From Clytia hemisphaerica (lineage: Eukaryota; Cnidaria; Hydrozoa; Leptothecata; Clytiidae): a DNA stretch of 64,000 nt. The notes under the pieces were generated by a model. It ran no database searches and was not told the origin of the DNA. It saw only the letters and a list, made by a program, of their open reading frames with translations. A program made the translations under genes and the position numbers. Below are positions 1,330 through 41,004 of the stretch, piece after piece (the first letter of the stretch is position 1; the number at the start of each line of letters is the position of its first letter). Location: positions 806,001 through 870,000 of the forward strand of contig CACVBU010000046.1 in assembly GCA_902728285.1 (NCBI GenBank), given 5' to 3'.

Positions 1330-2650
1330 GGTTTCGATGATTTCTTCTCGCTGATGATCATGGCAATAGGATTGAATCTCTTTGACGACAGATTCGAGAA
1401 AATTGATGAATACGTAGAGATCAGTCAATTTGTGTTGGTCTTTACCGTATAAGTTGAAGAATCGGAATTTTTGTTGCACTGGGATGATAGATACTGCCTT
1501 TGCGACGGTTTATGGATTGTCCTCAACTGTTGGTAGAAGTTCCTCAATCCTGTATGGTCGGTAATGGCGATTTGAAGTCTGTCAAACATTTCTTTCGGCT
1601 TGAGATGAGCAATGACGTAAGGGTTATCGTAATCACGCTTTACAGCTTTCAGGGCTGTCGCATAGAAGATAGAATCGGTTCCAATCGATTCAATGGATGA
1701 TCTAGCTGGTTCGTCCAGTACACTAAGCAGTCTCTCCATTCTAATAGTGTCATTAAAACTGCCTTTTAAATGAATTCTGGACTTGAGATTCTGTATAAAC
1801 ATAGCAGAAATGAAGCGAGATGAAGCATAGCAAGAGTGGAGCCCTTTTGAATGATGATGGATTATTGTATTATTGGAAAATGATGAGAAACGGTTGACTC
1901 CTTATCTTCTTCTTGGTTCTCTATATGCTCTCTCTCCAATTTAGCTTTTGGCTTGATTATTTGGAGATCTAGTTTAAACTTGTCCTCCAAAAATTGTTGT
2001 TTCAATTTGGCGTTCTCACTGGCCTTTTCATCTTAATTCCCAGCTTGTCTGATTTCGTAGAAGATGTTTTTCCTGAAGAACTGACATGACTTTTGGTCCT
2101 GGTTTGATGCTAATTCCAGGGGTATATCCTGGAAATAGGTTTTATATTGGAGAAGCTCAGATGGGCTTGGCTTTGTTTCAACTTTTGAAACAGGGTCAAC
2201 TTTTGAAACAGGGGATGGTTCAACAGAAGTTGCTTGACGCAGAAAGGGTGTTTCTAACTGTGTCGGGATAGAAGGAGGTGTTTGGTCTAGCTCATTATCG
2301 ATAAAAGAGGGGCCTGTCACGAATCGACTCAAGGAGGGTGGGGCTGAAAAAGTGTTTGGAAGTGCGAATTGGGTGTCTGGTAGACGATCTGGTAATGACA
2401 AAGTTTCGCATCTATTGGCCCAATTCCTTTGAGTAATGTGGGTAGCCATCTCTTCTAACCTTTGTTCGACTCTAGCCTGGTATTCTTCCGGTAATGTCTC
2501 ATCATTAGCCCATGCCTCAATCAATAGCTCCTCCTGACTTGCAAATTTTCTAACAGCATCATTCAACTGTCTTCCGGTCTTAAGGATTTCTTCACGAGTA
2601 GCCCAGGATTCCAGAAGCTGGTTTAAGTGACTGAGATACTTGTTGATCAA
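1330..2650 (-). pseudogene. gag: Decayed BEL/Pao-type retrotransposon gag
   Basis: Reading leftwards from 2650, a 205-aa frame holds an alpha-helical, Glu/Gln-rich N-terminal gag region and then a Pro/Ser-rich linker. A second frame at about 1880-2030 is charged and coiled-coil-like. A third frame (1802-1425) resembles the DUF1759 gag domain of BEL/Pao elements, with an LKGSFNDTIRMERLLSVL-type helix and a following KRDYDNPYVIAHL segment. Coding sense continues in another frame to about 1333. At least three frame changes separate the pieces, so it is dead. No protease, RT, RNase H, integrase or LTR pair is visible. Assignment rests on recalled family features; class I identity is likely, the exact clade less so. 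Confidence 0.6.
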
Positions 2651-2689
2651 CGAGAGATCTATCTTGGATTACACTTAAGATTCGAAGAA

Positions 2690-2998: not shown

Positions 2999-3204
2999 TT
3001 GATATTCATTTCTTGGTTTCTGAAGATAGCGATAATGGTGGTGTTTTATATGCTGGCGATGAATGTTCAAGTTGTTCTCATGGTAAATTTGATGGCCTTC
3101 ATGTTTTTATTGGCAGTGATAGTGGATCTGGCTAGGTCTGTTGATTCTAATAGCAATACCTTTTTTCAAGTATTTTCGAAGTTTAGTGAAAATAGTTCTG
3201 TTAA
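2999..3204 (+). other. Possible coding stretch interrupted by the TTAA transposon
   Basis: An open frame ends at the left TTAA (3201-3204). If the element and one TTAA are removed, the frame continues into 7284-7359 and reads Ser/Asp/Glu-rich sequence before a TAA stop. The right part (SDSSDEISDYSEGG) looks protein-like; the left part is hydrophobic and repetitive and less convincing. This may be a remnant of an older gene or element that was the insertion target. Confidence 0.25.
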
Positions 3205-3227
3205 AGGAAATCTAACGGCAAAAATTT
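3205..3227 (+). repeat. Left TIR of the TTAA transposon
   Basis: It begins AGGAAATCTAACGGC directly after TTAA and pairs with 7257-7279 at 21 of 23 positions. Confidence 0.85.
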
Positions 3228-3364
3228 CTTTATCCTTATTTTTTGACAGATTACAGGCCTAATTAAATAAAAAAGATTGCAAAAAGAACGAGTGCAAAAT
3301 CTTTCATATTGATTGAATTATCATTGTTTAAAATATCTCTTTATTTGAAAGTAAGAGGGTTTCG

Positions 3365-3372
3365 TGACGTCA
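3365..3372. promoter_or_regulatory. CRE-type palindrome TGACGTCA (left)
   Basis: This is a perfect TGACGTCA, 160 bp inside the left end and about 146 bp upstream of the transposase ATG. A matching site sits near the other end. CREB/ATF-family factors bind this palindrome; use in this element is inferred from position only. Confidence 0.45.
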
Positions 3373-3517
3373 GCGCTGAACTTTCATTTCGATAGAGAAA
3401 CTGTTTGTAGACAAAAATTATGGAAAGAAGATGTTTTATAGCAAAATATAATTTTGATGTACGTAGACGTAGAGATGTTTTGAGAAAAATGTAATTAGAA
3501 GAACGAACTTGAAAGAT

Positions 3518-6186
3518 ATGGTATTGTGTCAAGCTTTCGGATGTTCCAATAAATCGTCAGGGTCAAAGGCTATAAAAGGGAAATGTTTTTTCAAAATTCC
3601 TGACCCAAAGAAAGAACGTGATAGATGTTCACGATGGCTACACAACATGGGAAATGCCCAATTGACTATCAATACTTTCGAAGCTGCTCGTCATCGAGTC
3701 TTATGCAGTGACAACTTCCACTCAAAATGCTTTGAACGAGACTTGAAAGCTGAACTTTGTCCATTGTACAACACTAACGATGGACCTGCAAGGGCAAAAC
3801 GTCTCATTGATGGGGCTATACCGACAATTTTTGACCATCAGGTATACGAACAAATTAACATGGATGGAACTACAATCTCTTCAAGACAACCTAGAAAAAG
3901 AATCTCTGATATGGAGAGAGCAGATGTAAGTAGACAGTTTCCATTTAAACAACAGAAATTTTGGAAAAGTTATAAAATATGGTTTTCCAAGCCCTTTGAC
4001 AAGTCTTCCTTTTGACTTTTGACAATTTTCATCTTTAACAAGATATAAGCCTCATGTCAGGGTCAAGAGCATGGTCAACCTCGTCCCCGTGTATCCCAGG
4101 CTTTATTTATGTTACTGATTGACGCCAGAGAATATTATCTAGCGCTATCAGTAAGCATCAAAAAGCTGATAATGCGCAGGGAACGAGTTTGGAGCATGGT
4201 AAGAAAGATACTAAGACAGGGGTGTATATTGCAACAATCGATCAACACTATAAACTTGATTCTACATTTTGGTTTAAGGTTGTCAAGAAACTCCTGGTTG
4301 ACTATGAACAATCCATTGATAAGGAGAGGATCGTAAATCAAGAAAATATCGAACCATCCGATACGAACGACGCACCTGAGGAGACAGTGAATCAAAACGA
4401 AAGTCCAATTGAAAAGGAGATAGTCGAAACCAGCAGTGACGTAAGAAAAACCAATGAAGTCGGTACACAAACGGAAGATATTCTATGGCCAACTTCGTCA
4501 AGTCCTATCAAAAATGCAAGTCAAGATTCCATCTCCCAACCCGATCTCTCATTTGTTCACGATAAAGATGACCCTGATTATGAGCCTTCTGTCATCGAAA
4601 ACTCTAACCGAGAAGAGGTGAAAATCGATATTTTAAACGATGAAAAATTTGTCGTTTACGAAGGAATGCTGGATCAACTTGTTTCATGCTTACGTTGCAA
4701 GGTTTGTGCACTACCTGTCGACGAAATTAAGAAAATTAAGCTAGGAACTAGTATTCACTATAAAATCTTTTGTGACAACGAACATGTCATAATTGATTGG
4801 ATGAGCCAACCATTGATTGGGAAAATGCCTGCTTTTAATTTGTTGATTTCCGCCTCTGTATTTTTTTCTGGATCGAATTTTGAAAGCATTAGAAAACCTG
4901 TGAGCTTTTCCGGACTGAATTTTGTAAATGCTAATACCTTCTACAAGATTCAACGTGTACTTGTAATACCTAGTGTCAACCAAGTTTTCAAACAAAATAT
5001 AGAGGAAGCAAGAGCAGAAATAAAATCCAAAGCAGATCTTGAAATTGTAGGGGATGGTCGATTCGATTCACCAGGAAAATCAGCGAAGTACTGCACGTAC
5101 ACATGCCAATCACCCGAGACTAAAAAGATTATCGCCACCTCAACAGTCCAAACTTCAAAAGGCAAAGGCTCTGCGCCTCTTGAACTTGAAGGTTTTAAAA
5201 ATTGTTTGACCGATTTAGAGAGCAGTGGTTTCAAGGTTAAGAAGATAGCTACTGATAGGAACATGCAATTGGCAAAATGGCTGAGAGAAAATCGTGCCCG
5301 TATAATCAGAAAGTATGATACCTGGCATTTTTCGAAGAATATCACTTCAAAATTGAGGAAAGTGTCTAAACGAAAAGGTTGCAAAGTAATCCAAGAGTGG
5401 ATTTGACAGATCGGAAATCACCTATTTTGGTGTGCCGAAAATTGTAAGGGAGATGCTGAAACCTTGAAGCAAATGTGGAAATCTCTGTTGCACCACGTCA
5501 CAAATCGTCATCGATTTAAGAGGGCTTACCCCAAATACCCCAAGTGCTGCCATAAATCATTGAAAAGGAAGGAGACTGCACAGAAAAAATGGATCGTGAA
5601 AGATTCGGTAGCGTATGATGCATTAGAAAATGTCGTGACAGAAAGCAAAACCCTCAATGACATGGATCATCTCGTCAATCCATTACACACCGGGAGTATC
5701 GAAGTATTCCATTCGCTCGTTAATTCTTACACCCCAAAAAGATTGGAATTTGAGCTGAACGTGATGGATGCACGGGTGAAAGTAGCCGTAATTGATCACA
5801 ATAGCAACGTGGGCAGGCAGCAAGCAGTCATTACCTCCGAGCGTAAAGGATCAGGGAAAAAGGGAGAAAAACAGTGGAAAATCGTCTCTTCAAAGTTGTC
5901 AAAAGATTGGGTGGCCAAAGAGAAGAAGGAAGCAAAGTCTTACGATTTCGTGAAAACACTTTTAACTGAGGTTATAAAAAGGAAAGAAAAAGGAGAGAAG
6001 ATTGACCAAAAAGCCTCTGAATTAGCGAATAGACTCGTAAGCCCAAAAAACATTGCATTTACAGAACGTCCAGAAAGACAATTGGTTTTGGAAAAACATT
6101 TCAAAATTCCTTTTATATTATATATCTATCTATACTGTATCTTCACAAAAGATTATAAGTCTAGTTGCTCAATGAAGCTCTTTTGA
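3518..6186 (+). pseudogene. THAP-domain DDE transposase (Kolobok-like), one in-frame stop
   Basis: Exon 1 (ATG 3518 to about 3925, donor GTAAGT) encodes a THAP-type zinc module with Cys4, Cys9 and Cys63. The usual fourth ligand position reads Asn in CSDNF, with a His two residues later. Exon 2 probably starts at 4129 (acceptor GACGCCAG), which keeps phase and removes a stop at 4120. An acidic linker precedes the catalytic core: first Asp in GDGRFDSPG (codon 5053), second Asp in TDRNMQ (5254), a [C/D](2)H-type DTWH (5317-5328), and a plausible Glu in TGSIEVFHS (5701). A TGA at 5404-5406 breaks the frame, but identical-frame family sequence continues on both sides, so it is a single nonsense change. 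The C-terminus (after about 6100) looks atypical and may hide an unspotted intron. The family is known from cnidarian and fish repeats. Confidence 0.8.
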
Positions 6187-7001
6187 AACCAGTATATTTT
6201 CCACCAATAGACTCAGGGAACGTGTTTTTTATTTCTTTCACGACACAAGATGGGATCACCACTCTTTTGTCACGCCCAAGTATTTCGAAATAATGTGTCC
6301 ACGATGTGTATTGGTAATACGCAGTGTAACGATATTGCCTGTAGAAATAAAAGAAAACAAAGACTGGTTTTCTATTTGAACTCTTGCCTAGAATTGATTC
6401 AATAAATTTATTTAGAATCTTCATTTTGCTAGATTTACAAACTATTTTGATAGATTTACGAACTATTTTACGATCTATGATGTATTACACCCAATCAAAT
6501 TTACCTGTTTTTTATTTTTTTGATTCTTTTGAAAATTTTCTTATGTCTCCTTCTTGTTATAAAGGTGAACTCAAGGGCTGATGGGGTGAGAATGAAAGGT
6601 TTGAAGTCTTTGTGTTTTGTAATACAAGATATGCCTTTAAGTTTTTCTTCGAGAATACTACATTCTTTGCAACAGAGACATTCTTCTAAAGTGAAATCGG
6701 TGCCAATTACACAGTTTCTACAAGTGCACCAATGCAAGTTCTCAAGTCTACTTGACTCCAGGTCATCATTTTCCCGTTCGCTATCACTTGAAGACGAGCT
6801 TTCATCTTCCTTGTGCTTTGCTGACAGGATCGCTAGCTCTTTTTTTGAATACTCAGGTTCAAAACCATAAAACCCTCCAATAGCTTCATCTGACGTGTCT
6901 GCCTCTGATTCCGATGTGTCTAACTCCGTTTCTTCATCAGTAGAATGGTTAAAGATGTCTGAGAAATCATTTTCTTCACTTGAAGATTCACTCGACGACA
7001 T
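6161..7001 (-). CDS. P2X7 C-terminal ballast-domain protein, two exons, inside a transposon
   Basis: Exon 1 is 7001-6505, ending AACAG|GTAAAT. The intron is 6504-6339, with acceptor TTATTTCTACAG. Exon 2 is 6338-6161. Spliced length is 675 nt (224 aa) with phase preserved. The N-terminal ~80 residues are Ser/Asp/Glu-rich and disordered. Then comes the cysteine-rich ballast core: WCTCRNC, a CLCCKEC cluster, and GISCITKH. Exon 2 supplies the conserved YRYTAYYQYTSW, GRDKRVVIPSC and GGKYTGFK segments. In P2X7 this domain is cytosolic and binds zinc through its cysteines and guanine nucleotides. Here there are no channel segments, so it is a free ballast protein. The frame is open and splice sites are intact. 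It lies within the TIRs of the TTAA element, tail-to-tail with the transposase, so it is probably an accessory gene of the transposon. Its role there is unknown. Confidence 0.85.
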
Positions 7002-7131
7002 TTTGCTCTGAATTTAGAAGTCTAAATGAATGTGCTAAATGATTTTATCAAGAAACTTTTCTTTATAAAACTCACTAACAGTTTAGAGAAAAAGAGAGAA
7101 AATCTTGTTTAACAAACAAGTTGTTCAGCAA

Positions 7132-7139
7132 TGACGTCA
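7132..7139. promoter_or_regulatory. CRE-type palindrome TGACGTCA (right)
   Basis: A second perfect TGACGTCA lies 140 bp inside the right end and about 131 bp upstream of the ballast-protein ATG, mirroring the left site. A TATA-like TTTTATAAAG on the minus strand (7061-7070) lies between it and the ATG. Confidence 0.45.
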
Positions 7140-7256
7140 CACGCTTAAATCTTTAAAGGGATATAATTTCCTATTGAGTTAAAATTTTTCAACAAAATAT
7201 AGCTCATTTTAATCCCCACAGTATAATGTTTGCATAATTTCCAAAAAAATGTAGCA

Positions 7257-7279
7257 AAATTTTTGACGTTAGATCTCCT
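7257..7279 (-). repeat. Right TIR of the TTAA transposon
   Basis: In reverse complement it begins AGGAGATCTAACGTC, followed outward by TTAA at 7280-7283. Confidence 0.85.
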
Positions 7280-7359
7280 TTAAATCTGATAGTAGCGATG
7301 AAATTTCTGATTATTCTGAAGGTGGTGTTGAAGGTTTGGGTTTTAAAAGGAAACTTTAA

Positions 7360-8200: not shown

Positions 8201-8208
8201 TTTAAGAC

Positions 8209-9798
8209 ATGTTTTTTTACTCTACAATAGTCCAAAAGGAAGTCAATTCAGATGATCTTGATGCGACAGCAATGGATGATATCTTTAAAAATATTTGTCC
8301 GGAAATTGATCCTCCACTTAACGGATGGGAAAGTACACCAGATGACACCGATGTCAAACAAGGGGCCCATTTACGGTCCTTAAGTGTGGACCGTAATAAA
8401 ACACAACACTGCTTCTATATTCGAGATGGTGAATTTAACGTGATCTACAACAGAATGAAAAAAAGGCTTAAAGCACTCGGTCGTACTGAGAAAGACTTCG
8501 AAGATCTGCTTCCTCCAATACGATATGGAGGATATACTAAACCTGTATCGACCTTCAGAGGAAGAGAAAAAGTCTTAAAAGAGATAAGTGACAAGGTTGA
8601 CCAGAATGAAGATCTGAAGTTGGTGATCCATGCTGTTGCTGGTACAGGTAAAAGTGAAATTGTTCGACAATACTATGAGCTAAATAGTGCAAAATTCGAA
8701 CAGAATATCCTGTGGATCAAATCAGATACTGAGGATTCACTTAATGCTTCGTTTATCGATATTGGTGAACAGCTTAGACTTGAGGTAAAGGACCAGAATG
8801 GAAGTTACAAAGGAATCAACTCTATTGTCGATTGTGTTTATCGATACCTTGATGACGTTCCAATGCTATTTGTTTTTGATGATGTCACCGACCAAAAAAA
8901 GTTGATCAAATATCTTCCGTCGTTCAAGAAGCAGACTGTCCTGATCACAAGTCAGAAGAGTGGCTGGACTCAACTAGAATTTGAATCCATTCATCTAGAA
9001 CCATTTGACGAAGCTGAAAGCAAGAAAATGATTCGCGAAAATTCAACAAAATCTTTATCTGAAGTCCAACTAAATGAAGTCGCACAATTGATTCAAGGCC
9101 ATCCATTATCGTTACAACAATTTGTTGCATTTATTAATCGAACAGACCTAGATGTGGCAGATTTCGTACAATACTTTAAAGCTGAAACTGGAAAGCCACT
9201 GTTCGAAACTCCATATGCTCATTCAGCAGTGGAAGCTATAAAAGTCAATATCGATCGTCTCGTTTCTGAAGACGTTGAAAGTCAACTCGCTGTTAAGGTG
9301 TTAAAAAGGCTGTGTTATATCGACTCAGAAGAAGTATCTATGTCAGTTGTCAAAATCATATGCCGTGACTTTCATGAGGTGGAAGTTGATTCTGCATTGT
9401 TTCTTCTACAAGAGCTTTCACTTGTTAACATACGAAACTTGGAGAGGCGATCGGGAGAGGCGATCGTAAGCATTCATTCCATGATTCGAGAAACCGTTCT
9501 CGTGATCAACAGTGGAAACGAAGAAGAACAACTGGTAAAGTGTTTAAAGAACTTTTTCCAGGAGATTGATATCGAGAAAGAACGTATTTCCATTGATCAT
9601 GCAAATTTTGGTAGAAGATTTATTTGGTATTTTATTAAACTTATTCAGTGCAAAACCGAAAGTAAAAAATTCCAAAGTATACTTGCAGATGAAATTGGAC
9701 TGATTGATAAATTAATGAGTGGGAGAAATCAGGTGATACACTCTCAGTTTTTAGGGTTTTTAGGGTTTTATATGAGACCTCTTAAGATTCTAATTTGA
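8209..9798 (+). CDS. NB-ARC (STAND) NTPase, C-terminally truncated
   Basis: The ORF is 529 aa with an in-frame TAA just before the ATG. The N-terminal ~110 residues are unassigned. From FRGREKVLKEI (about residue 115) the order is NB-ARC-like: Walker A GTGKS in AVAGTGKSE (about 142-149), Walker B LFVFDDV (220-226), VLITSQ (244-249, RNBS-B/sensor-like) and a GLPL-type GHPLSLQQ (from 297), followed by a helical winged-helix-like region. Metazoan relatives are ATP-dependent switch proteins, often ending in TPRs or other sensors, as in invertebrate innate-immune NLR-like proteins. No TPRs are present: the last ~20 residues run into a repeat. A donor-like CAG|GTGATA near 9733 could lead to further exons, so either truncation or an intron is possible. 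The ligand is unknown. Confidence 0.8.
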   Translation: MFFYSTIVQKEVNSDDLDATAMDDIFKNICPEIDPPLNGWESTPDDTDVKQGAHLRSLSVDRNKTQHCFYIRDGEFNVIYNRMKKRLKALGRTEKDFEDLLPPIRYGGYTKPVSTFRGREKVLKEISDKVDQNEDLKLVIHAVAGTGKSEIVRQYYELNSAKFEQNILWIKSDTEDSLNASFIDIGEQLRLEVKDQNGSYKGINSIVDCVYRYLDDVPMLFVFDDVTDQKKLIKYLPSFKKQTVLITSQKSGWTQLEFESIHLEPFDEAESKKMIRENSTKSLSEVQLNEVAQLIQGHPLSLQQFVAFINRTDLDVADFVQYFKAETGKPLFETPYAHSAVEAIKVNIDRLVSEDVESQLAVKVLKRLCYIDSEEVSMSVVKIICRDFHEVEVDSALFLLQELSLVNIRNLERRSGEAIVSIHSMIRETVLVINSGNEEEQLVKCLKNFFQEIDIEKERISIDHANFGRRFIWYFIKLIQCKTESKKFQSILADEIGLIDKLMSGRNQVIHSQFLGFLGFYMRPLKILI

Positions 9799-22066: not shown

Positions 22067-22607
22067 TCAATGTTTGAAAACAGCCATTGCAGCCTTGACT
22101 AGGTCTGGGAAGTTTGGGGATCCATACCCAGTGACAGGATCAAAGCCTTCAGTAGCACAGAAACCTTTATCGTGTGTAAGACAGCCTTCGTTGCAACCAC
22201 TGGTAACATCATAAAAAGCTTGTGGATTCTTGTAAATAAATGGGTTAAGGAATCCCATGACCGGCTTATTGGCATTAAGTCGGTGCTCGTTTACCATGCT
22301 AATGGTACCGCCGACGGATGGGGTCGAAGCGGAGGTGCCCGTGACCCCTGGAACTGGCACCCGATTATTGACGACCCAGAAATGACGACATAAAGCAGCG
22401 ATGCCAGGGTAAGCATGACCTGTTTTGTTGCGGAGATCTTTTGGTGGGACGCCTTCTGTATGCATATAGGCTGCTACTGCATCTGTTTGATATTTAGGTT
22501 GATCGAAAACATTGCTGAAACCTCCGCCGCTAATCTCGTAGGCGAATTCAGGGCCAACTGTTAAAGTGTTTGAGAATCCAGTTCCACCAACTCCAGTAAT
22601 GTAAGGA
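22067..22607 (-). CDS. TPP1: Tripeptidyl-peptidase 1 (sedolisin), terminal exon
   Basis: The exon starts after a good acceptor (GCTGGTTTTCAG, AG at 22609-22608) and ends at TGA/TAA near 22067, giving about 179 residues. It carries SPYITGVGGTGF, the ISGGGFSNVF segment, the catalytic-serine motif GTSASTP, INEHR-like MVNEHR, GFLNPFIY, two C-terminal cysteine pairs and the calcium-binding tail DPVTGYGSPNFPDL. These match the C-terminal third of TPP1, a lysosomal S53 serine-carboxyl peptidase that removes tripeptides from N-termini. The catalytic Glu and Asp lie in upstream exons, which I do not find to the right. The adjacent intron is occupied by a Penelope-like insertion. The exon is fully open, so the gene may be functional if upstream exons lie beyond the insertions. 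Confidence 0.85.
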
Positions 22608-22669
22608 CTGAAAACCAGCAAAACCAGACAATTTAATGAAATATAATAAGCAGCAAAGTCCAAATATCT

Positions 22670-23791
22670 TTCTGGTTTTTTAGTAAAAATTATATTTATA
22701 TATAATATTTCGATGTTTCAATCACATCATTATCAACTGAATGTTATAAAATGTTCACAAAGCTACCTATCTTATAATGTTGAGAAATTCTGATGTCATT
22801 ACAAAGTCATTAGAAAAGTCATAAGAAATATTATCAACTGTGAATTGAAAGATAAAAGGAAGCAATTATCAAGAGAATAATTGTAATTCCTTTGATGCTT
22901 TCAATCCACAATTGATCTCTGGAGAAAACTTTTTTATATAACATGTCTCTAAGAATATTAAATGTGACCATGACAAAGAAGAATCTACAATAGAATAATT
23001 ATCAAATACAGCATTTAGCAAATGGTCTTTCAATCCACAATTGATCTCTGGAGAAAACTTTTTTATATAAATTGTCTCTAAGAATATTAAATGTGACCAT
23101 GACAAAGAAGAATCTACAATAGAATAATTATCAAATACAGCATTTAGCAAATGGTCATCATACTCTATTGTCTCTAAATTGTCATCAATCAACGATGGCA
23201 AGTTAAACAATGAAACATAATGATAGAAATCTTGGCAGTTTTTCAAATGCAAGTTCATTGGCTGATTGTCTCGGGTACCATGCTCCTTTAAGCGAATGGA
23301 CAGACAACGGTCAGTCTTACCAATGTAGTCTTTTCCACAGCCTGGGCACGATAGCTTGTAAATTAGATTTGGCTTCTGCAATTCAGGGATTCGATCTTCG
23401 TTGGACAAAACATAGCGCTTTTCTTTGTTTTGAACTTTTTAACAAAATGAACTTTTACTCTTTGTGAAACAACGTAACTTTTGAATGCATGATCTTACCA
23501 AATTCTCACTATTTAAACCAATGTAAGGAACGTCAAAATAGACTTTAACAATATCATCCTCGTTTTGCTGCTCTTCGTTCCTTGGCGGCTTCGAACGAAA
23601 ACTTCTGACGAGCGACTTGGCAACGATAGAGGGATACCCATTCCAAGACAAGAATAGCTTCAGTTTTCTGCTCTGACCATTGAGAGCGTGTTTCGACGAG
23701 CAGATTTTAGATGCACGATATCTAGCCCAAGCTGTTTTCAACCTCCAGGGAGATTGGCTGGTAAAATAACTATACTGGCCCGTGTGTGTTG
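22670..23791 (-). pseudogene. 5'-truncated Penelope-like element (RT end plus GIY-YIG nuclease)
   Basis: Reading leftwards, 23791-23439 encodes the post-palm/thumb region of a PLE reverse transcriptase (THTGQYSYFTSQSPWRLKTA, SWNGYPS, VPYIGLNSE). After a frame change, 23408-22869 encodes the GIY-YIG nuclease with the PLE-typical CPGCGKDYIGKT, the arginine in RLKEHGTR and the catalytic Glu in IFLET. A 129-bp segment containing that Glu is duplicated in tandem. A 3' tail reaches roughly 22670 in the TPP1 intron. PLEs reverse-transcribe at nicked target DNA and are usually 5'-truncated, as here. The 5' break is exactly where the 3.2-kb direct repeat begins. Confidence 0.8.
22899..23156 (-). repeat. 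129-bp tandem duplication inside the PLE nuclease
   Basis: Two nearly identical 129-bp copies start at 22899 and 23028. Since 129 is 43 codons, the frame is kept and the LLNAVFDNYSIVDSS and EINCGLK segments are doubled. Confidence 0.9.
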
Positions 23792-26700: not shown

Positions 26701-27017
26701 GGTCCCGGAGCTGTCTTCATTTCTACCGAGCTCTACTAAGCTAAGGAATCGCAATACTGAATTTTGATTCGGTGCCGTAAATTTATTAAAATCTAAATAT
26801 CTCCGCCAATTTAAAACATCGCCGCCAATTGAAAACCGCCCATTGAAGGCGACGTGGTTTTCTAAAAAAGCCGCACGCCGCGCGTATCCGTACGAGCGCT
26901 AGTCGCCGCGCGTCGTCCTCTTACCAGCGCTTTTTATTTCTTGTCTTTCAAAAACTTTTGTTTGTCAAAAAAGGGTGTCGCTGAGTCTTCAGGAGCGACA
27001 CCCTAGTGACGCCACTG
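23792..27017. repeat. 3.2-kb direct repeat, copy 1
   Basis: It begins AACCAACCATCTACATAGTT and ends GTGACGCCACTG. Copy 2 (34197-37179) has the same start and end with very few substitutions. Copy 1 carries about 209 bp (24295-24502) absent from copy 2. The first ~1.2 kb is non-coding with G-rich runs; the remainder is a hAT-like element. Confidence 0.9.
24991..27017. mobile_element. hAT-like non-autonomous element, copy 1
   Basis: The ends are CAGTGGCGTAGCCAGG and, inverted, CAGTGGCGTCACTAGG. ATAGTG flanks it on both sides (24985-24990, 27018-27023). The right end folds into a hairpin (GGGTGTCGC/GCGACACCC). A GC-rich island sits at 26870-26930. No transposase is recognisable among the short frames. 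CAGTGGCGTA-type termini are common in animal hAT-related elements, but hAT duplications are normally 8 bp, so the class is tentative. Confidence 0.6.
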
Positions 27018-28275: not shown

Positions 28276-28545
28276 AGACGCAAATTTATTTTCCGTAGAC
28301 AGGCGGAAATATCTTTAATGGTCGGAAATATCATAGCGTAATGGTCGGAAATATCATTTGATGGTCGGAAATATCCAAAACTGTGAAAATTTGAAAATTT
28401 AATGGTTGGAAGTATCAGAGCGTAATGGTCGGAAATATCATTTCATGGTCGGAAATATCATTTGATGGTCGGAAATATCTTTTGATGGTCGGAAATATCC
28501 AAAACTCTAAAAATTTGAAAATTCAATGGTCGGAAATATCCCGCG
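28266..28545 (+). repeat. ATGGTCGGAAATATC array, copy 1
   Basis: About ten copies of ATGGTCGGAAATATC alternate with short linkers (ATAGCGTA, ATTTG, AAAACT). The array is preceded by GTTGTCGTAGACGCAAAT. Confidence 0.85.
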
Positions 28546-31035: not shown

Positions 31036-31345
31036 CTGTCTACGACGCAAATTTTTTTCCGTAGACGGGCGGAAATATCTTTAATGGTCGGAAATATCAT
31101 AGCGTAATGGTCGGAAATATCATTTGATGGTCGGAAATATCTCTTGATGGTCGGAAATATCCAAAACTGTGAAAATTTGAAAATTTAATGGTTGGAAGTA
31201 TCAGAGCGTAATGGTCGGAAATATCATTTGATGGTCGGAAATATCATTTGATGGTCGGAAATATCTTTTGATGGTCGGAAATATCCAAAACTCTAAAAAT
31301 TTGAAAATTCAATGGTCGGAAATATGCGTCTACGACAACCCTGGA
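31036..31345 (+). repeat. ATGGTCGGAAATATC array, copy 2, in an inverted-end unit
   Basis: The same 15-bp array is in the same orientation as copy 1. It is flanked by GTCTACGACGCAAAT at the left and GCGTCTACGACAAC at the right, so this copy looks like a complete unit with short inverted ends. Copy 1 keeps only the left end. Confidence 0.75.
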
Positions 31346-32682: not shown

Positions 32683-34112
32683 TCATGAAATGGAGCATAT
32701 GGGGAAAAGACTATTGGTATAGCTGAGCAAAGAAAACTGCGGAAAATGAATATTAGGAGCAAGGTCAACTATTGTCTTGTGCGCTGTGTTTCCCGTTAAA
32801 ATAGGAGGAAAGGAACCCAATAAAAAAGATTTTATTTTCAATTCTGTGGAATTTTTGTTTGACTTAGCAGATTGTATAAACTCTTCAGCTTTTTGTGGTA
32901 CATTATCTGCCTTTGGTAATTCTGAGTCCAAAAATTTTTCAAAGCTTTCAAATTGAATAGGCATATTAGCCGGCGTAATGTTTTTAAAGTACATTGATGC
33001 AAATCTTCGATATAATCTGAGAAAGAAACTGAACTGCTGATATCCCATTGGTCACTTTTTGGTAAAGCACAATTCATACCTAAAATTTCTAAGTTAGGAG
33101 CACCAGCCTCAATTTGAACCTGTTTCAAAACACCTTCCTTGGTCTTCATACTACCAATATCGGACAAATTAGTAAAACAAGAATTAGCTTCGATGCAACT
33201 TTCAGGATGATTCAGGATGTCCGGATTGGGTGAATCAATATTAGAAGTATCATTTTCAGCAGACACAGAGTCATAGAAAGAAACAGTAGCCCTGATATTC
33301 GGGATACCACTTGTGGAGGAACTATTCTCAGATGGAATTTTAGATGCAGAGGGAGCAACAGCATCACTTTGAACCTGTTTCAAAACACCTTCCTTGGTCT
33401 TCATACTACCAATATCGGACAAATTAGTAAAACAAGAATTAGCTTCGATGCAACTTTCAGGATGATTCAGGATGTCCGGATTGGGTGAATCAATAATAGA
33501 AGTATCATTTTCAGCAGACACAGAGTCATAGAAAGAAACAGTAGCCCTGATATTTGGGATACCACTTGTGGAGGAACTATTCTCAGATGGAATTCTAGAT
33601 GCAGAGGGAGCAACAGCATCACTTTGAACCTGTTTAAAAACACTTTCCCTGGTCTTCATACTACAAATATCAGACGCATTAGCAAAACTGAAATCAGCTT
33701 CGATGCAACTTGATTCAGGAGAATTGGAAGAATCAATGGAATGTGATGCCAGTGCAGAATTCAAGTGAAAAGTAGGGTGAGTTAAAATCAAATTCACAGC
33801 ATTAGAAGAATCAGGAGTTTGAGACTTGAGTTTAGTAGTTAAAATTTCCTTAAGACATATTCCAGATATTTTCATTACTTTTTCTTTTCCCCGGCGTCTA
33901 AATCTTTGATTTGTATAGGTTACTTCAATACCTTTCTTGGACAAAAGTGATTTAAATTTTTCGAGAAAGACATCTGCACTGTTTATAACTTGTTTCTGCA
34001 GAGAACAATGTTCATTGTAACTTTTCAGTAATGAATTTAAAAAAGAAAACTTCCCTTGTTGGACTTTGATGGATTCAACAAACCAGTCTTCCAAGCTTGT
34101 ATCGGATGCCAT
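32683..34112 (-). CDS. Unidentified Ser-rich protein with three 85-aa repeats, frame change near 32985
   Basis: The start ATG at 34112 has a good context (AAAATGG); an upstream in-frame ATG at 34160 is less likely. The first ~90 residues form a compact domain (SLEDWFVESIK, LLKSYNEHC, KKGIEVTYTNQRFRRRG, ISGICLK) that resembles a DNA-binding helix-turn-helix, a weak inference. It is followed by three 85-aa repeats (255-bp DNA period, starts near 33121, 33376 and 33631) rich in Ser, Asn and Asp. Frame 1 runs to 32838, but the better C-terminal sequence (KNITPANMPIQFESFEKFL) is in the -1 frame to 32683. The junction holds the heptamer TTTAAAA in register. With a -1 step the product would be 476 aa. 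An ordinary indel is equally possible. The gene starts 85 bp from direct-repeat copy 2. Confidence 0.5.
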
Positions 34113-34196
34113 TTTAGCTGAAGATGAAAAAAGATAGTTTAATATGAATATGGTTACCATTTCTAAAATTCAATATTATCTTTAAAAACCAACCAT

Positions 34197-37179
34197 CTAC
34201 ATAGTTCGGGGATGACACCTTCCAAAAAAGTGACTAAGGGGGAGGGGGTCAGAAATTTTCATTAAAAAGGGGGGATAGCAAGGAGGGGGTCGTTTAAGAA
34301 GGGGGGATTACATAAATTGTAAATTATTTCCCAGCACTGTTATGAAATTTGGTCTGCATGAAAGGAAGTTCTTTATTTTCACTAAAAAGTAGTATTATAT
34401 TTGCCAGACTTAATTTTCCTTTACTGTTTCCCTTCCCTTTTTACCATAGAAAATTTAGCCCAAAACCCTTGGGGAATAGGTATTTTCAAAGGTTGAGGGG
34501 AATGCCAAGAAGGGAGGCGGGTCGGCCCTATCCCCACTATGATCTAACATCCAACCAGCATGATCTCAAAAGCAAGAGTAGATCCACACAAAACAAGTTA
34601 CTCAGGAAAAATTGGCAATTTTTGCAAAATGAGGTGCAAGCATTGGGCTGGGGGTTTGGTGTTAAAATCTCTGATATCATGACATTTTCGTAAAAGAGAG
34701 GTGTACCCAAAATAGAAGCCCTAAAAGTTTGTGTATAATTAGGCTTGAAACTAATTTTGTCACAACACGCTAATTATGCAGATTTTTTATAGCGACAATA
34801 AAAGAAACCTATTAACTCGAAATAAACTCCCTCAAGGCAGGGCAAGAGACCTGGTATATGGTGTAAAACAATGTTTTTCCATCTATTTGTTATATGCATA
34901 ATATGCCCAGAGGAATGTTTAGTGCATATAACGAACCCTGTAACATAAAGCTCTATTTCATACTTTGACCACATGGTAATTATGTATCTTTAAATATCAT
35001 TTGCATCATGTAATATTCATTATTTTTTAGACCCATTACTCCTGGCTTAATTAAGATGACTTTCCTTCACAAAATTTTGTTTATTTAATTCTGATCTGTA
35101 AATCATATGGGTACCCCAATATAAGTAGCCCAATTGGGGTATCCTACCTTTTAGGAACACTCATGACATAATAGTGCAGTGGCGTAGCCAGGATTTTCAA
35201 GGGGTGTCGCAAATTTCAATTTTCAAATGGGCGGTTAGAGGGCGGTTGTTAATTTCATTAAGGCGGTGTTAAAATATAACGCCCAAATACTTCCAAGCAA
35301 CCGGGGGACGTTATGGGCTGCAGATCCCAATACCTGTGAACCCCAAACACAGGCCACGTTGCACGTGGTTAACCGGCAACTCACCATTAGACGAGTTTAC
35401 CATTTGTTGAATGGGTGGCAGAGCCACACATTTTATCGAAAATATTCAAAGAGTGAGTGTCTCGTTCGTAATAATAGCTTGTGGTTTCTAAAAGAATGAT
35501 ATTGCCCTTTGGGAAATTCCTTTTGTCCTAGGGAAATTCCCGGACGAAACTAAAATGGTACCGCTATACATTACTCTTTCTCATATGTACTATTAGCCTA
35601 GAAATCTAAGCTAGTTTGATTCAGTCACTTGGATAAATCTGATGGTTAAGTTGTGACTGAATAATAACTAGCTTAGAGGGACAGTAAACTCGGCAGCTTA
35701 TCAACTGACAAAAATATGAAATCACACCACACACAGAACATAATATCAAAATATTATTTAGAACTTTTTTATTTTGTCTTTTTTTCTATCTTCTGATTGG
35801 CTCTTATTGTAAGATTAGATAAACAAACTCTCCGTCTTACAGTTTATGCACTCCTTTTGTAAAATATAAAATGAAATTCTATTGTAAAGTGTGCCGATGG
35901 AGAGTGAAAGAAAAAATTTGTTCATTTTTTTCAAAAAGTTATGTTCGTGTTATATGGAAAAGTCAACAAGAGACAAATTCGTTTCTTGAGTGATAATTTT
36001 GTGATTTGACATAAAAGTATTTTGTATGATTTTTACAAAGCTCATCATAAAAATAACCTTCAACAAAATAAATAAAAATTACTTTAGACTAGCAGGCTAA
36101 AATACCGTATACAAAACAATGTAATCAATCCCCCCTAAAAAAACATTTTCTTGAATCTTGATCTCGTATAGCTGTCACTGAAAATAAGCACCGACAATTT
36201 TATGTTCTTCGAAAACGAAAGATGTCATTGTCTGTAAAATCGAGCATAAAGTCTCAAATTCATAAAACAACAAGAAACCACAACCAGTCAAAAACCAAGA
36301 ACTGTCTATCATCTATCCATTACAGTATAATACAATATCATGTCATGCAATCCAATCAGAATACAGAACTACAGCATAGGATCTGTACAAGTACTCTCTC
36401 TTATATATTGCCACATACGATAGTCAATGTTCAACCACAAATCTTTACTTTATTATTTGCCATTCTGGAAACAAGCAACTTTTGCTGTCTTTACGACGAA
36501 TAGCATTCTTTTTTCTTCATCAGTTCAATTCTTCCCAAAAACAAGAGAAGCACTATCAGGTCGGGATCAGGTCTTGAAAACTTTTTCTGATACAGTCGAT
36601 AAAGTATTCCAAATATATCTCTCGGCTCTCTCATGGTAATAGTCTCACATAATAATATAATCGAAGAAAGATCTTGCATTCAATGAGCCTCTTCTACTCG
36701 TTTTCTGATGAAATAATTATAATTTACGGTCACCGACGAGACCTCTTTTGTTCTTCTAACAATTTAACAAAGAGGATAACAATAAATATTAAAGTCGGTA
36801 GCCGTGTCATTGTTTTTGTGCAGACGATGAAGGCCAAAGTGAAGAAAAATTTCTTATTTTACGGTCCCGGAGCTGTCTTCATTTCTACCGAGCTCTACTA
36901 AGCTAAGGAATCGCAATACTGAATTTTGATTCGCTGCCGTAAATTTATTAAAATCTAAATATCTCCGCCAATTTAAAACATCGCCGCCAATTGAAAACCG
37001 CCCATTGAAGGCGACGTGGTTTTCTAAAAAAGCCGCACGCCGCGCGTATCCGTACGAGCGCTAGTCGCCGCGCGTCGTCCTCTTACCAGCACTTTTTATT
37101 TCTTGTCTTTCAAAAACTTTTGTTTGTCAAAAAAGGGTGTCGCTGAGTCTTCAGGAGCGACACCCTAGTGACGCCACTG
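34197..37179. repeat. 3.0-kb direct repeat, copy 2
   Basis: Same boundaries as copy 1 (AACCAACCATCTACATAGTT to GTGACGCCACTG), same orientation, 10.4 kb away. It lacks about 209 bp present in copy 1 at the position of 34685. It separates the divergent genes ending at 34112 (-) and starting at 37189 (+). Confidence 0.9.
35177..37179. mobile_element. hAT-like non-autonomous element, copy 2
   Basis: It is nearly identical to 24991-27017. ATAGTG precedes the left end, but the right flank is CAAAGAGTC, so no target duplication is kept on this side, unlike copy 1. Confidence 0.6.
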
Positions 37180-37188
37180 CAAAGAGTC

Positions 37189-40100
37189 ATGGGGGATCTT
37201 CTGCCTAGAAAGTGTGAAAAAGTTGTTACTGATTTTTTTGAAGTTGAGCGAAAGGGTACACGCGTTGGTTGTTACTTTTTGTGGCAGCATGACATTGTAA
37301 ATAGCTTCAGGGATAATAAGTCAATAAGAACAAAACAAGCAGTCACAATTTTTAAAGAGAAAAAGCCTTGGAAGAAATGTCTTGACGAAGAAGGACATAG
37401 GAACTGCGTTGAGTTTAAATTTTGGGAGCAACTGCATTCTAGAGAAGTTAGACGTTATCGTGAAATGGATTCTTCAAGGTCAGTGTTTGTCCCTGGAGAA
37501 GCAAAAGTTATGATAGGTGGTAAATTAGTCACATTGAATGGAGGTATCAAAAGTCTGGATCCAGTATGCACTGGTGTGGCTGTCAGTACTGGTAACCATC
37601 CTTACACGTGTGAAAATTGCTTAAATGGCCTGTTAAGAAAACGTAAAAAGAGTAAGCTTAACACCATTGAATCTAGAGTTGGAAAACCAGGCTTTAGAAC
37701 AGGCTATGCGACAAAAACAGAAGAGGCCCAAAGAGTGAAGGAAATGGAAAATGTCAATAAAGTACTTAGAAAAGAAATCAAGTTCAACAGGGTGCAAAAC
37801 GAAATGAAAACATGGGAGCGCATGATTCTTAAATCATGCTTGGATGGGGATGTCAAAAAACTGATTGTTGATTTAGCTTCTCTGATGCAGCAGGAGAATA
37901 AAAGGGACAGTATTCAAATTGAAATATTGCAGAACATTGTGGGAAAACTTAAATCAGGAGTTAATCACAAATATACTACTCTGATTAAAGATATTGCCGT
38001 CCTGTACAAGAATAAACTAGGAGTGACTAGCTACAGTGACCTTAAGGAGTTATTTTGTTTACCCAGCAAAACTTGTGTGGTACAACATTCCAAAGAAAAC
38101 AAATTGCATGTTGGCTTGAACGAGGAGGTTTTTGATAAAGCTATAGAGCTTTATGGTGGTGGCCCAGTTGTAGAAGCGTCTGATGAGGCAAGGACACTGC
38201 GTTTTTTATCTCCTGTAGTTGGAAAGAACAATGAAATTGAGCTGATTGGAAAATGTTGGGATGTTGATATTAGCAAATGGGAAGATTCGCGTATATTCTT
38301 GAAAAATGTTATAACAAAAGAAAATTCTGTGGATGAGTTCTCTGCGTTGAAGGGTTTTATAAAGGAAATGAGGTCTTCCAATACTTTTGCCAAAGACACA
38401 GCTATTCATAACTTTGTGGCTGCATCAGGTGCCTTATCAAAACCATTAGTGTTCATGTTTTGGCCAACTGCAAATTCAGGCTACTGTGCCCCTAACCTTC
38501 TTAAAATTTGGGATGTTGTCAGAAAACATTGTTTCCTTGATAACGATGGGATTTTGAGAGAGAATCCGGTTAATCTATTAGGCCACAGTACAGACAGCGC
38601 GGGCTTTCAGCTTGCGGCTGCTGTTGCACTAATGACACCGCAGTCTAAAATCATTGATGTTGGTGTAAAGTATTTAACACTTGGTGTAGGAGAGAGTAAG
38701 TTTGCAGCACCTTATTTCGGACCCCTTCCATTCATTGCTTATTTAGACTTCGATCATAATCTACGTTTGTTCCTCAAGTGTCTGAAATACACAACATTGG
38801 ACTTAAACATCTTTCCATCAAAGGCAGGCTCCTATGTTGTCACAATCAATCATTTGAAAGAGTTAAAGCAAATAGCTGACGATAGCGGTGTTTCTTGTGA
38901 CTTCAGCAACAATGATCTTTTGTTTGCTCGCTATTTAGACCAGAATAGTGATGCTGCTTTGAAGGTATTCACCTCATCGGTTGCTGATTTGCTCCAAGAA
39001 AATGTACCTGGATCTGCTGGTACTGTCTTATACATCAGAGGTGTTGTTGCACTTTTTGACCCGTTTTTAAACCCATGTTCAAACCCAATCTTGATGCAGG
39101 AAAATATTTCCAAAGGAATAACAATTTTTCGAATTTGGCGAAGGATTCTTGAATTAAAGAAAAAAAGGTTGAATGCCACAAGTGGTGCTGCAAAAAATCC
39201 ATCAAAAAGAGGAATGTTTCTTACATATGGGTGTTATAAGACAGCTGAAATCTTATTTACTGCTGCCACTTGCCACATGCTAGCAATTTTTGCTAATTTT
39301 AATCATCTTGGCCCCTCTGCTCTTTCTCCATTTAAATGTGGTACCAAAACCACAGAAAGGATTATCAGTGAACTTCAGGGGAAAACTAATAAACTCCAAT
39401 CTTTGGATGCTCAGCCCACTTTATCTGACATTTCAAGTAGATTATCTAAAGTTCAGGCAAATCAATTTTCAGAGGATAGTATTCTTGCTAGGGGTGGTAA
39501 AAAACATCAGTCTACTAACAGAAGACGATTGTCACATAAATGGAAAAATGTCGATTCAAATTCAAACTACAAATTTCCTGATTCATATGAACTGTTTAGA
39601 GATGCTCAACGGAAAGCCTTTCGATCAGGAGTAAGAAAGGGAATTGAATTGTTCAAAAATCAATGTCCTGAAGGTGCTAACTTTGTCAAGGAAAATGGAG
39701 ATTTTGGATTTTTACAATCTTTTGACAATGGCGTACCCTGTGAGAGTGAATTTGATGGGGCTTTAAATCACGGTTATGCGATAGACAAGCTAAAGAATTT
39801 AAATCCAAGTGAATTACTAACTTCCAAAGCAGAAAAGAAGGAGAAGAAAATAACTGACTATTTAAACCCTGAAGATGTGGATGAGCAAAAGAAAGCTGAC
39901 CAGGATGATAAGCTTGAAATGGAACCCAATGAACCTTCTGCAGATGAATCAATTATTGAGAGAGCCTCCGCAAAAAGTATTGAGCCATCATGCTCTGGTT
40001 GTGAGATTTTTGCAGATGAGAAATTGTCAGAAGAGGAAACAAAGAAAGTCTATGTTGAGAGCAAGAAGGCCCCAGCATTGAGTTGTAAAGCAGGTGAGAA

Positions 40101-40998
40101 ATCATCCAGTGAAGAAGCAAGGGTGGTCTCTGTTAGAAGCAAGGAGACTTCACAAAAGAATTGTGATCTTGAGAAAACTGAAGTTAAGGCTCAAGATGTA
40201 GAACTTGAACTTTCAGATGGAGAGCTCGAAGTCAAAGAAGAAGAGCGTTTGGATCAAAGGTGGTATTTAACGAGGTTAATTAGAGGGAAATTGAGCAGTG
40301 TTCATTTGAAACAGGCGTTGAAAATTCTTATTCCTAGGGAATATGTTTCCAGAGAGCGATCGCGTAGACACATTGCTTCAAAATTTTTACCAGACAGCAA
40401 AGAAATAGATGAGAATCATAATATCCTGCTTTTTCGTTTCGTTATTGCTAAAGTTGCTAACGACATCGTTGTCTGTAAGGTTGTTTCTTTGAACAACAAC
40501 GGAAAATCCATAATGAGTGCATCCAGTGATGATAAAAATGTCACCTGTCGTTTGATTCCATTAGAGGAAGTACCACAAAAGAAACATGAGTATCGTTTTT
40601 CTGAAAAAATAATTGTCAGTGATTGGTTGAAAATCTCCAACATCCTTAGTGAGATCAGTATGGATATAGGTGAAAACGCTAGCATGGTTGTCATGGAAAA
40701 GTCAAGAGAGTTAATCAGGATGGCGAGACAGACTTATACGATTGACGAAGATCGGAAAATTGCCCAAAAGTTGTCAAAGGGACTGCTTCCATCAGAATTT
40801 AAAGAGGTTGATGATGTATTTGATAAAAAGCTTGATCCAAACAGCCATCTTTACATCTATCTTGTGAAATTCAAAGGTGAAGAAGGGGAACGGGTTTGGT
40901 TGGACTCTTCATGTTTTGACAGGCCATTTCGTTACAACAAAAGAGATGGACTGAAAGTTTCTGATCCGTTGTTTGCTGTTGAAAGGCTTGAAGATTAA
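37189..40998 (+). CDS. Large transposase-like protein (unclassified, P/Kolobok-like core)
   Basis: The ORF is 1,269 aa from ATG 37189. The frame stays open upstream into the hAT-like TIR, so the 5' part may be lost. A CENC pair (Cys141, Cys144) is zinc-knuckle-like. The core has GHSTDSAG (Asp469) and YLDFDHNLRLFLKCLKY (Asp520, Asp522, His523). A D(2)H arrangement followed by basic residues recalls the second-Asp region of P, hAT and Kolobok transposases. Residues about 880-1020 are Lys/Glu/Ser-rich and disordered. The C-terminal 230 residues form another globular region with VKFKGEEGERVWLDSS. I recall similar multi-copy proteins in corals and Hydra but not a named superfamily. A peptidase-like reading frame follows directly. 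Confidence 0.7.
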   Translation: MGDLLPRKCEKVVTDFFEVERKGTRVGCYFLWQHDIVNSFRDNKSIRTKQAVTIFKEKKPWKKCLDEEGHRNCVEFKFWEQLHSREVRRYREMDSSRSVFVPGEAKVMIGGKLVTLNGGIKSLDPVCTGVAVSTGNHPYTCENCLNGLLRKRKKSKLNTIESRVGKPGFRTGYATKTEEAQRVKEMENVNKVLRKEIKFNRVQNEMKTWERMILKSCLDGDVKKLIVDLASLMQQENKRDSIQIEILQNIVGKLKSGVNHKYTTLIKDIAVLYKNKLGVTSYSDLKELFCLPSKTCVVQHSKENKLHVGLNEEVFDKAIELYGGGPVVEASDEARTLRFLSPVVGKNNEIELIGKCWDVDISKWEDSRIFLKNVITKENSVDEFSALKGFIKEMRSSNTFAKDTAIHNFVAASGALSKPLVFMFWPTANSGYCAPNLLKIWDVVRKHCFLDNDGILRENPVNLLGHSTDSAGFQLAAAVALMTPQSKIIDVGVKYLTLGVGESKFAAPYFGPLPFIAYLDFDHNLRLFLKCLKYTTLDLNIFPSKAGSYVVTINHLKELKQIADDSGVSCDFSNNDLLFARYLDQNSDAALKVFTSSVADLLQENVPGSAGTVLYIRGVVALFDPFLNPCSNPILMQENISKGITIFRIWRRILELKKKRLNATSGAAKNPSKRGMFLTYGCYKTAEILFTAATCHMLAIFANFNHLGPSALSPFKCGTKTTERIISELQGKTNKLQSLDAQPTLSDISSRLSKVQANQFSEDSILARGGKKHQSTNRRRLSHKWKNVDSNSNYKFPDSYELFRDAQRKAFRSGVRKGIELFKNQCPEGANFVKENGDFGFLQSFDNGVPCESEFDGALNHGYAIDKLKNLNPSELLTSKAEKKEKKITDYLNPEDVDEQKKADQDDKLEMEPNEPSADESIIERASAKSIEPSCSGCEIFADEKLSEEETKKVYVESKKAPALSCKAGEKSSSEEARVVSVRSKETSQKNCDLEKTEVKAQDVELELSDGELEVKEEERLDQRWYLTRLIRGKLSSVHLKQALKILIPREYVSRERSRRHIASKFLPDSKEIDENHNILLFRFVIAKVANDIVVCKVVSLNNNGKSIMSASSDDKNVTCRLIPLEEVPQKKHEYRFSEKIIVSDWLKISNILSEISMDIGENASMVVMEKSRELIRMARQTYTIDEDRKIAQKLSKGLLPSEFKEVDDVFDKKLDPNSHLYIYLVKFKGEEGERVWLDSSCFDRPFRYNKRDGLKVSDPLFAVERLED

Positions 40999-41004
40999 AA
41001 AAAA

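Follow-up and report, generated by a model that had tools for sequence, protein, structure and literature searches.

A 64,000-nucleotide stretch of the hydrozoan Clytia hemisphaerica (contig CACVBU010000046.1, positions 806,001 to 870,000; hereafter the window) holds a TTAA-flanked DNA transposon of 4,083 bp, spanning positions 3201-7283, in which a transposase gene faces a gene for the ballast domain known from the C-terminal end of the P2X7 receptor. The question raised by this locus is whether the ballast gene is "cargo", as the initial annotation had worded it, or part of the transposon itself. Our data from the Clytia genome indicate that it is the transposon's own second gene, though one group of Kolobok elements lacks it. 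Very likely, the window element represents a damaged Kolobok of the two-gene Kol0 type, with the ballast protein, KolX, as an accessory protein acting in trans; the assignment to Kol0 rests on the presence of KolX in the sequence and not on transposase phylogeny.

The ideas that Kolobok-like transposons carry ballast genes as accessory genes and that the P2X7 domain came from a mobile element, both voiced in the initial annotation, are already in print. Kojima and Bao (2022; PMC9587614) have described KolX in the Kol0 lineage of Kolobok, with Kolobok-1_XT as a representative, as clearly similar to P2X7 residues 476-595, with the seven cysteines and the ballast fold, proposing that P2X7 arose by fusion with KolX and that Nanor is likely derived from a (domesticated) KolX as well; according to these authors, animal ballast proteins had previously not been recognised as Kolobok components. 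What this analysis adds is a set of Clytia families, the counts of linkage and orientation, the correlated divergence of transposase and KolX at moderate distance and a group without KolX, which amount to a counted, independent test, in one jellyfish genome, of the 2022 proposal that the P2X7 tail descends from a transposon gene. No title or abstract in the openly licensed literature dealt with these Clytia Kolobok/KolX families, and no paper there combined "P2RX7_C" with "transpos"; in the available text of the Clytia P2X paper (PMC10620158), "ballast" occurs once, in a reference, and "transpos" is absent.

The 23-nt terminal inverted repeats (TIRs) of the window element pair at 21/23 positions, and at 25/27 (93% complementary) with TTAA included (3201-3227 vs. 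7257-7283). A 24-nt pattern common to both ends was found only at those two window sites when up to 3 mismatches were allowed, with zero occurrences in 100 shuffles; in addition, none of 100 Markov-resampled sequences contained a TTAA-anchored pair as good as the TIR pair. On these shuffle and resampling controls, we rejected the notion of chance TIRs. The flanking TTAA is shared by the copies designated C134, C74 and C94, and just inside it the element starts with AG and ends with CT, as expected from the 5'-RR...YY-3' termini in the definition of Kolobok (PMC9587614).

Coordinates of both genes are given in Table 1. The transposase, on the plus strand, matches the Pfam THAP domain as well as a Mutator-like transposase family (E 1.3e-9). 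Among 26 aligned relatives, the blocks GDGRxDSxG, TDR and DxWH are conserved, with D186 invariant and D253, D274, W276 and H277 present in at least 90%, in agreement with the DDD/E and C/DxxH signature of Kolobok; the window copy itself displays DTWH and HTGSIEVFHS, the E being read from the sequence and not from the list of conserved columns. The zinc finger accompanying the THAP domain was recognised solely by eye, as a C/H pattern. A structural model of a relative's transposase (mean pLDDT 80) matched the transposases of ISCth4, Hermes and the P element with E values between 6e-5 and 7e-4; the query TM-scores were low (0.21-0.35). On the opposite strand, the two KolX exons join at GT-AG into 224 codons, all open, and both open reading frames match P2RX7_C above the Pfam cut-off, with no other Pfam family above cut-off in either exon. 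The annotated Clytia protein P0001 is exactly the spliced KolX of C134, with the same two-exon structure as in the window. A P2X7 receptor would join a P2X channel to the ballast domain, and a protein of 224 residues is not such a receptor. Scans of viral contigs yielded no relatives of either the transposase or KolX.

The window transposase is broken twice, by a nonsense codon, in a column where three other full copies in the alignment have sense codons, and by a deletion of ~45 bp. The exon borders of this gene were fixed by P0016 (label TCONS_00000137), a protein from a transcript set and presumably from Clytia, and the end of P0016 at that same nonsense codon makes it probable that the window copy or its allele is transcribed. 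The initial annotation had thus read this locus largely correctly: the TTAA-flanked TIRs, the THAP/DDE transposase convergent with a complete two-exon ballast gene, and the nonsense codon alongside an open ballast frame are all borne out by TIR comparison with its controls, Pfam, copy alignment and GT-AG splicing. Its 26-bp overlap between the two genes is present in the window copy but is peculiar to it, because the deletion removes the transposase stop and the frame runs on; in copy C134, the two stop codons lie 79 bp apart.

Other copies of the same family carry the same two genes. Every copy found with a length of 4 kb or more, six including the window, harbors both transposase and KolX; TIR pairs enclose both genes at C34 (the window), C74, C94, C134 and C432 (7.3 kb), and C907 has one recognisable end together with both genes. 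Copies C134, C74 and C94 are 99.8-99.9% identical to one another and 98.2-98.3% identical to the window copy (gaps excluded), which suggests that the family moved recently. Across the genome, the TIR pattern occurs 62 times at up to 2 mismatches vs. once for the reversed pattern. Most of the other TIR pairs are ~0.4-1.3 kb apart, with a few at 2-3.2 kb (C860, C896, C717) that showed no transposase among the matches listed. Some pairs retain only the first 33-46 codons of KolX, which fits internally deleted, non-autonomous copies.

The linkage of the two genes extends well beyond this family. Searching the 417-Mb Clytia assembly with two KolX and two transposase queries, and merging same-strand matches up to 2.5 kb apart into one locus, we found at least 78 KolX loci and at least 67 transposase loci, both being lower bounds from the best-scoring candidates (every match from three of the searches and, for one transposase search, the 16 of 73 matches judged new or longer). 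A related transposase lies within 5 kb of 40 of the 78 KolX loci, and all 40 pairs are convergent; density alone would predict 0.2 pairs within 8 kb. This pairing extends across groups whose transposases share only ~25-36% identity. In a protein database, 6 of 25 transposase contigs were exactly equal in size to a KolX contig among the matches listed (four of the six being 1.6-5.2 kb long), compared with a mean of 0.11 and a maximum of 2 in 600 shifted controls. Equal size is indirect evidence that both genes share one contig; the comparison covered 119 of the 120 KolX contigs listed (P0079 omitted), from 269 matches, and one of the 26 transposase matches had no contig.

These counts, which the initial annotation had named as checks of its inference on accessory genes, support that inference in the Clytia genome, as exemplified by the retention of KolX in every long copy of the family and the convergent order of every close pair. 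They also bear on a one-off capture, whereby a single Kolobok element would have taken up a host ballast gene as cargo. A Kolobok group without KolX and the many KolX loci with no transposase nearby, both described below, would fit such an event, but recurrent pairing across divergent transposases, always in the same orientation, together with the six copies, refutes it for the Clytia genome, and we find it scarcely credible. KolX as a gene of the transposon is also found outside the window family: in the C823 family (two copies) and the C38/C472 family, both genes sit inside TTAA TIRs of their own, and none of 100 resampled sequences equalled the pairs at the two C823 loci, C38 or C472.

In the de novo search behind these TIRs, which covered 23 sequences with a KolX match, several candidates were discarded. 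The pair at C285, with a span of 8.1 kb and a high purine content, is unlike the ends of C38, a nearly identical element; it was nonetheless unreached in 100 resampled sequences. The pairs at C907 are AT-rich and lie outside the known left end of that copy, and the pair at C659 matches no known end. As a separate observation, the Clytia protein P0043, annotated as "P2X purinoceptor 7-like", has exactly the sequence of the KolX at C448, a gene convergent to a Kolobok transposase; such an annotation can therefore hide a transposon gene. Two ballast genes, L036:2489-2950 and L043:1797-2429, had no transposase near them in stretches of 9.95 kb and 4 kb, respectively, and are candidate solo or domesticated copies.

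For 12 paired loci, transposase and KolX distances correlated with r = 0.91 (permutation p 0.0002), as calculated from 54 of the 66 pairs, the other 12 being dropped for short overlap. These loci remained from 17 fetched and matched after removal of 5 near-duplicates and are not equivalent to 12 families, given that C823 has close relatives in C348 and C669, and C448 in C432b; C669 contributed its THAP part only, and some KolX rows from broken copies hold intron or frame-shifted residues. With nine non-redundant loci r was 0.88, and with six loci 0.76 (p 0.014). Three groups are supported in both trees, namely C448 with C432b, C22 with C107 and C514, and C594 with C25. Comparing the window KolX to the C823 and C448 families, synonymous divergence (dS) is saturated or nearly so and non-synonymous divergence (dN) is 0.27 and 0.49; the transposase dN between families is 0.2-0.4. 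The 5 synonymous and 4 non-synonymous differences between the KolX genes of the window and C134 are too few to lean on, and the C94 and C432 models in this comparison are cut short by problems of frame or splicing. These data show that the two genes diverge in step between close and moderately close families. The proposed comparison of the two trees held at that range and failed for the most distant pairs.

Several points weigh against KolX as the accessory gene of a two-gene Kolobok: 1) no transposase was found within 8 kb of 37 of the 78 KolX loci (six of them short end fragments), and at one locus the transposase lies at 6 kb and is not convergent; 2) no KolX was found at 26 of the 67 transposase loci; 3) de novo TTAA TIRs were accepted in only 9 of the 23 sequences (the window, C134, C74, C94, C232, C823 twice, C38 and C472), with three pairs discarded as above, no pair found in the other 11 and the left end of C432 lying beyond the stretch examined, and a looser search gave none for C101, C327, C22, C448, C107, C760 and C256; 4) among 42 pairs with transposases less than 45% identical, r fell to 0.13, and because distant pairs hardly correlate, an unbroken inheritance of the pairing from the deepest split is unsupported; 5) no experiment on KolX was found; 6) five Kolobok copies (C101, C566, C128, C456 and C662), 99-100% identical over 3.2 kb (L042:1512-4741), had no detectable KolX by tblastn on the C101 stretch or within 8 kb around the other four. 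Decay or missed matches may account for many of the unpaired loci. In the last group, four of the five copies have no stop in the matched part, the transposase shares 48-54% identity with its counterpart in the C38 family and scores below the Pfam cut-off for Mutator, and the left end of the group reads AGGGGAACGG, preceded by TCAA. Since this recently multiplied group has no KolX detected, a Kolobok does not always require KolX in cis, and KolX can be absent or supplied in trans.

The same results bear on the view that ballast genes began as old genes of animal hosts, which transposons took up later and repeatedly. Stand-alone ballast genes were described by Rump et al. (2020; PMC7016195), whose claim of synteny, based on a pair of linked markers retained between sponge and molluscs, arthropods and echinoderms, would favor a host origin, as would the KolX loci with no transposase found and the lack of correlation among the most distant pairs, which leaves room for several old acquisitions. 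Transposons go unmentioned in one results section and the discussion of that paper, and its Ixodes gene model, fusing a THAP domain (printed TAHP) with a ballast domain, looks to us like a mis-annotated Kolobok. Repeated acquisition would also have to arrive at the identical convergent order in all 40 pairs, and we deem a host origin distinctly unlikely. We thus retain KolX as the element's own second gene, with an accessory role that we regard as highly probable.

What KolX does within the element may be approached through its residues. The 16 KolX domains with both exon parts available were compared to P2X7, and all seven zinc cysteines (477, 479, 482, 498, 499, 506 and 572) were kept in 16/16; by sequence alone, KolX is a second protein with a ballast domain and seven cysteines, as described for Kol0. 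Of the residues listed by Rump et al. for binding guanosine diphosphate (GDP), namely R546, H547, R574, R578 and K583 (PMC7016195), R546 was present in 16/16, R578 in 14/16 (the window and C823 families having lysine instead), K583 in 1/16, and H547 and R574 in none. Because the cysteines are invariant and most GDP residues are missing, the zinc fold appears to be the conserved core of KolX, and a guanine-nucleotide site is doubtful. An AlphaFold prediction of KolX from seven sequences (pLDDT 36) was too poor to use.

Judging from known families, we surmise that the THAP domain of the transposase would bind the element ends and that the RNase H-fold core would cut and join at TTAA in a cut-and-paste reaction, with KolX, likened here to mudrB of MuDR, acting in trans on assembly, target choice or element expression. 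Given that P element transposase uses GTP via an insertion domain (PMC7776569), one may speculate that KolX belongs to the Kolobok transposition machinery as a subunit responsive to guanine nucleotides, providing in trans, from a separate protein, what the P element has within its transposase, with the GDP site of P2X7 as a relic; with most of the guanine contacts missing, this is a long shot.

Alternatively, KolX may be a silencing antagonist or an expression factor and take no part in the transposition reaction, a model for which is VANC of the plant VANDAL elements. The convergent second gene of maize MuDR, of unknown function, is in line with this alternative, and so, weakly, is the open KolX frame beside a broken transposase, which fits a role in trans; the absence of any DNA-binding or chromatin domain above cut-off in KolX besides P2RX7_C speaks against it. 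We consider this alternative somewhat unlikely.

Turning to the receptor, five KolX proteins were tried against P2X7 chains in the PDB, with best E values from 4e-5 (C134, window family) to 8.5e-14 (C327 family). The C327 family was entertained as the P2X7 donor on the strength of this match and was dropped, with P2X7 showing 27-34% identity to every KolX family compared and the tree failing to place it (support 0.32). Because P2X7 is about equally distant from all families and has no firm position in the tree, we cannot assign it to a donor lineage.

Table 1. Features of the Kolobok element in the window, with positions counted from the first nucleotide of the window.
Feature	Position	Strand	Basis
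Left TTAA, read as target-site copy	3201..3204		Sequence, TIR comparison
Left TIR, starts AG (5'-RR)	3205..3227	+	TIR comparison; genome-wide TIR pattern
Transposase exon 1 with THAP domain	3518..3925	+	Pfam THAP 2.8e-11; exon end from P0016, GT at 3926
Transposase intron, GT...AG	3926..4278	+	P0016 joins ..MERAD to VVKKLL..
Transposase exon 2 with Mutator-like DDE core, reading of this copy, normal end lost	4279..6186	+	Pfam, alignment, fold match of a relative
Transposase nonsense codon	5404..5406	+	Copy alignment; P0016 stops at same codon
Deletion point, ~45 bp missing vs. three other copies, takes transposase stop	6106..6107	+	Copy alignment
KolX exon 2: remaining ballast domain, seventh cysteine, stop	6161..6338	-	Pfam P2RX7_C 1.4e-8
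KolX intron, GT...AG	6339..6504	-	Splice reading
KolX exon 1: acidic Ser-rich N-terminus, first six zinc cysteines	6505..7001	-	Pfam P2RX7_C 1.4e-6
Right TIR	7257..7279	-	TIR comparison
Right TTAA, read as target-site copy	7280..7283		Sequence, TIR comparison

The window contains other features around this element. Near the transposon, a 530-residue frame at 8206-9798 (+) matches NB-ARC (4.2e-10) and DZIP3-like HEPN (2.5e-9) and resembles an NLR-like gene. On its other side, 1425-2668 (-) matches DUF1759 (6.2e-8), adjoins a 211-residue frame without a match and is, we assume, the gag region of a retroelement; a 17-copy tandem array with a 30-bp unit (98-793) is open in four listed frames. Two frames without Pfam matches were judged by eye: 22869-23438 (-), with an internal 129-bp tandem duplication (98% match), resembles a GIY-YIG endonuclease of Penelope-like elements, and 22067-22717 (-) contains GTSASTPSVGG, which we take to resemble the end of a sedolisin-type peptidase. 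A 443-residue frame at 32838-34169 (-) holds a 255-bp tandem repeat in 2.4 copies, its single Pfam match being below cut-off. At 37147-41745 (+), an open frame of 1283 residues is directly followed by one of 248 residues, with no Pfam match, and may be another mobile element. An identical 19-bp unit in 2.2 tandem copies occurs at both 26795-26836 and 36957-36998, 10.2 kb apart, perhaps as the ends of a larger repeat, and arrays at 28304-28540 and 31070-31325, separated by 2.8 kb, have in common both their 20-bp unit and a higher unit of 124 bp.

Among known systems, the Clytia element is closest to the Kol0 Kolobok with KolX, with which it shares TTAA, RR..YY ends, TIRs, the DDD/E with C/DxxH signature and a seven-cysteine ballast protein (PMC9587614); the main text of that paper mentions cnidarians and never Clytia. 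The Xenopus Kolobok (PMC6004289) is alike in its THAP and DDE transposase with an H2CH finger, given there as the norm of the superfamily; unlike the two-gene Clytia element, it is presented in a main text from which "KolX", "second ORF" and "ORF2" are absent. With the P2X7 ballast domain (PF20478), KolX shares the seven zinc cysteines and R546, and it differs in having no channel part and in the loss of H547 and R574 from all 16 domains and of K583 from 15 of them. Fish Nanor and nanor-like proteins are, by description, ballast-domain proteins like KolX (PMC9587614). Maize MuDR likewise consists of two convergent genes, the transposase mudrA and mudrB of unknown function (PMC3440606), but it belongs to a different superfamily from Kolobok, and the likeness to the Clytia element drawn here is one of gene arrangement.

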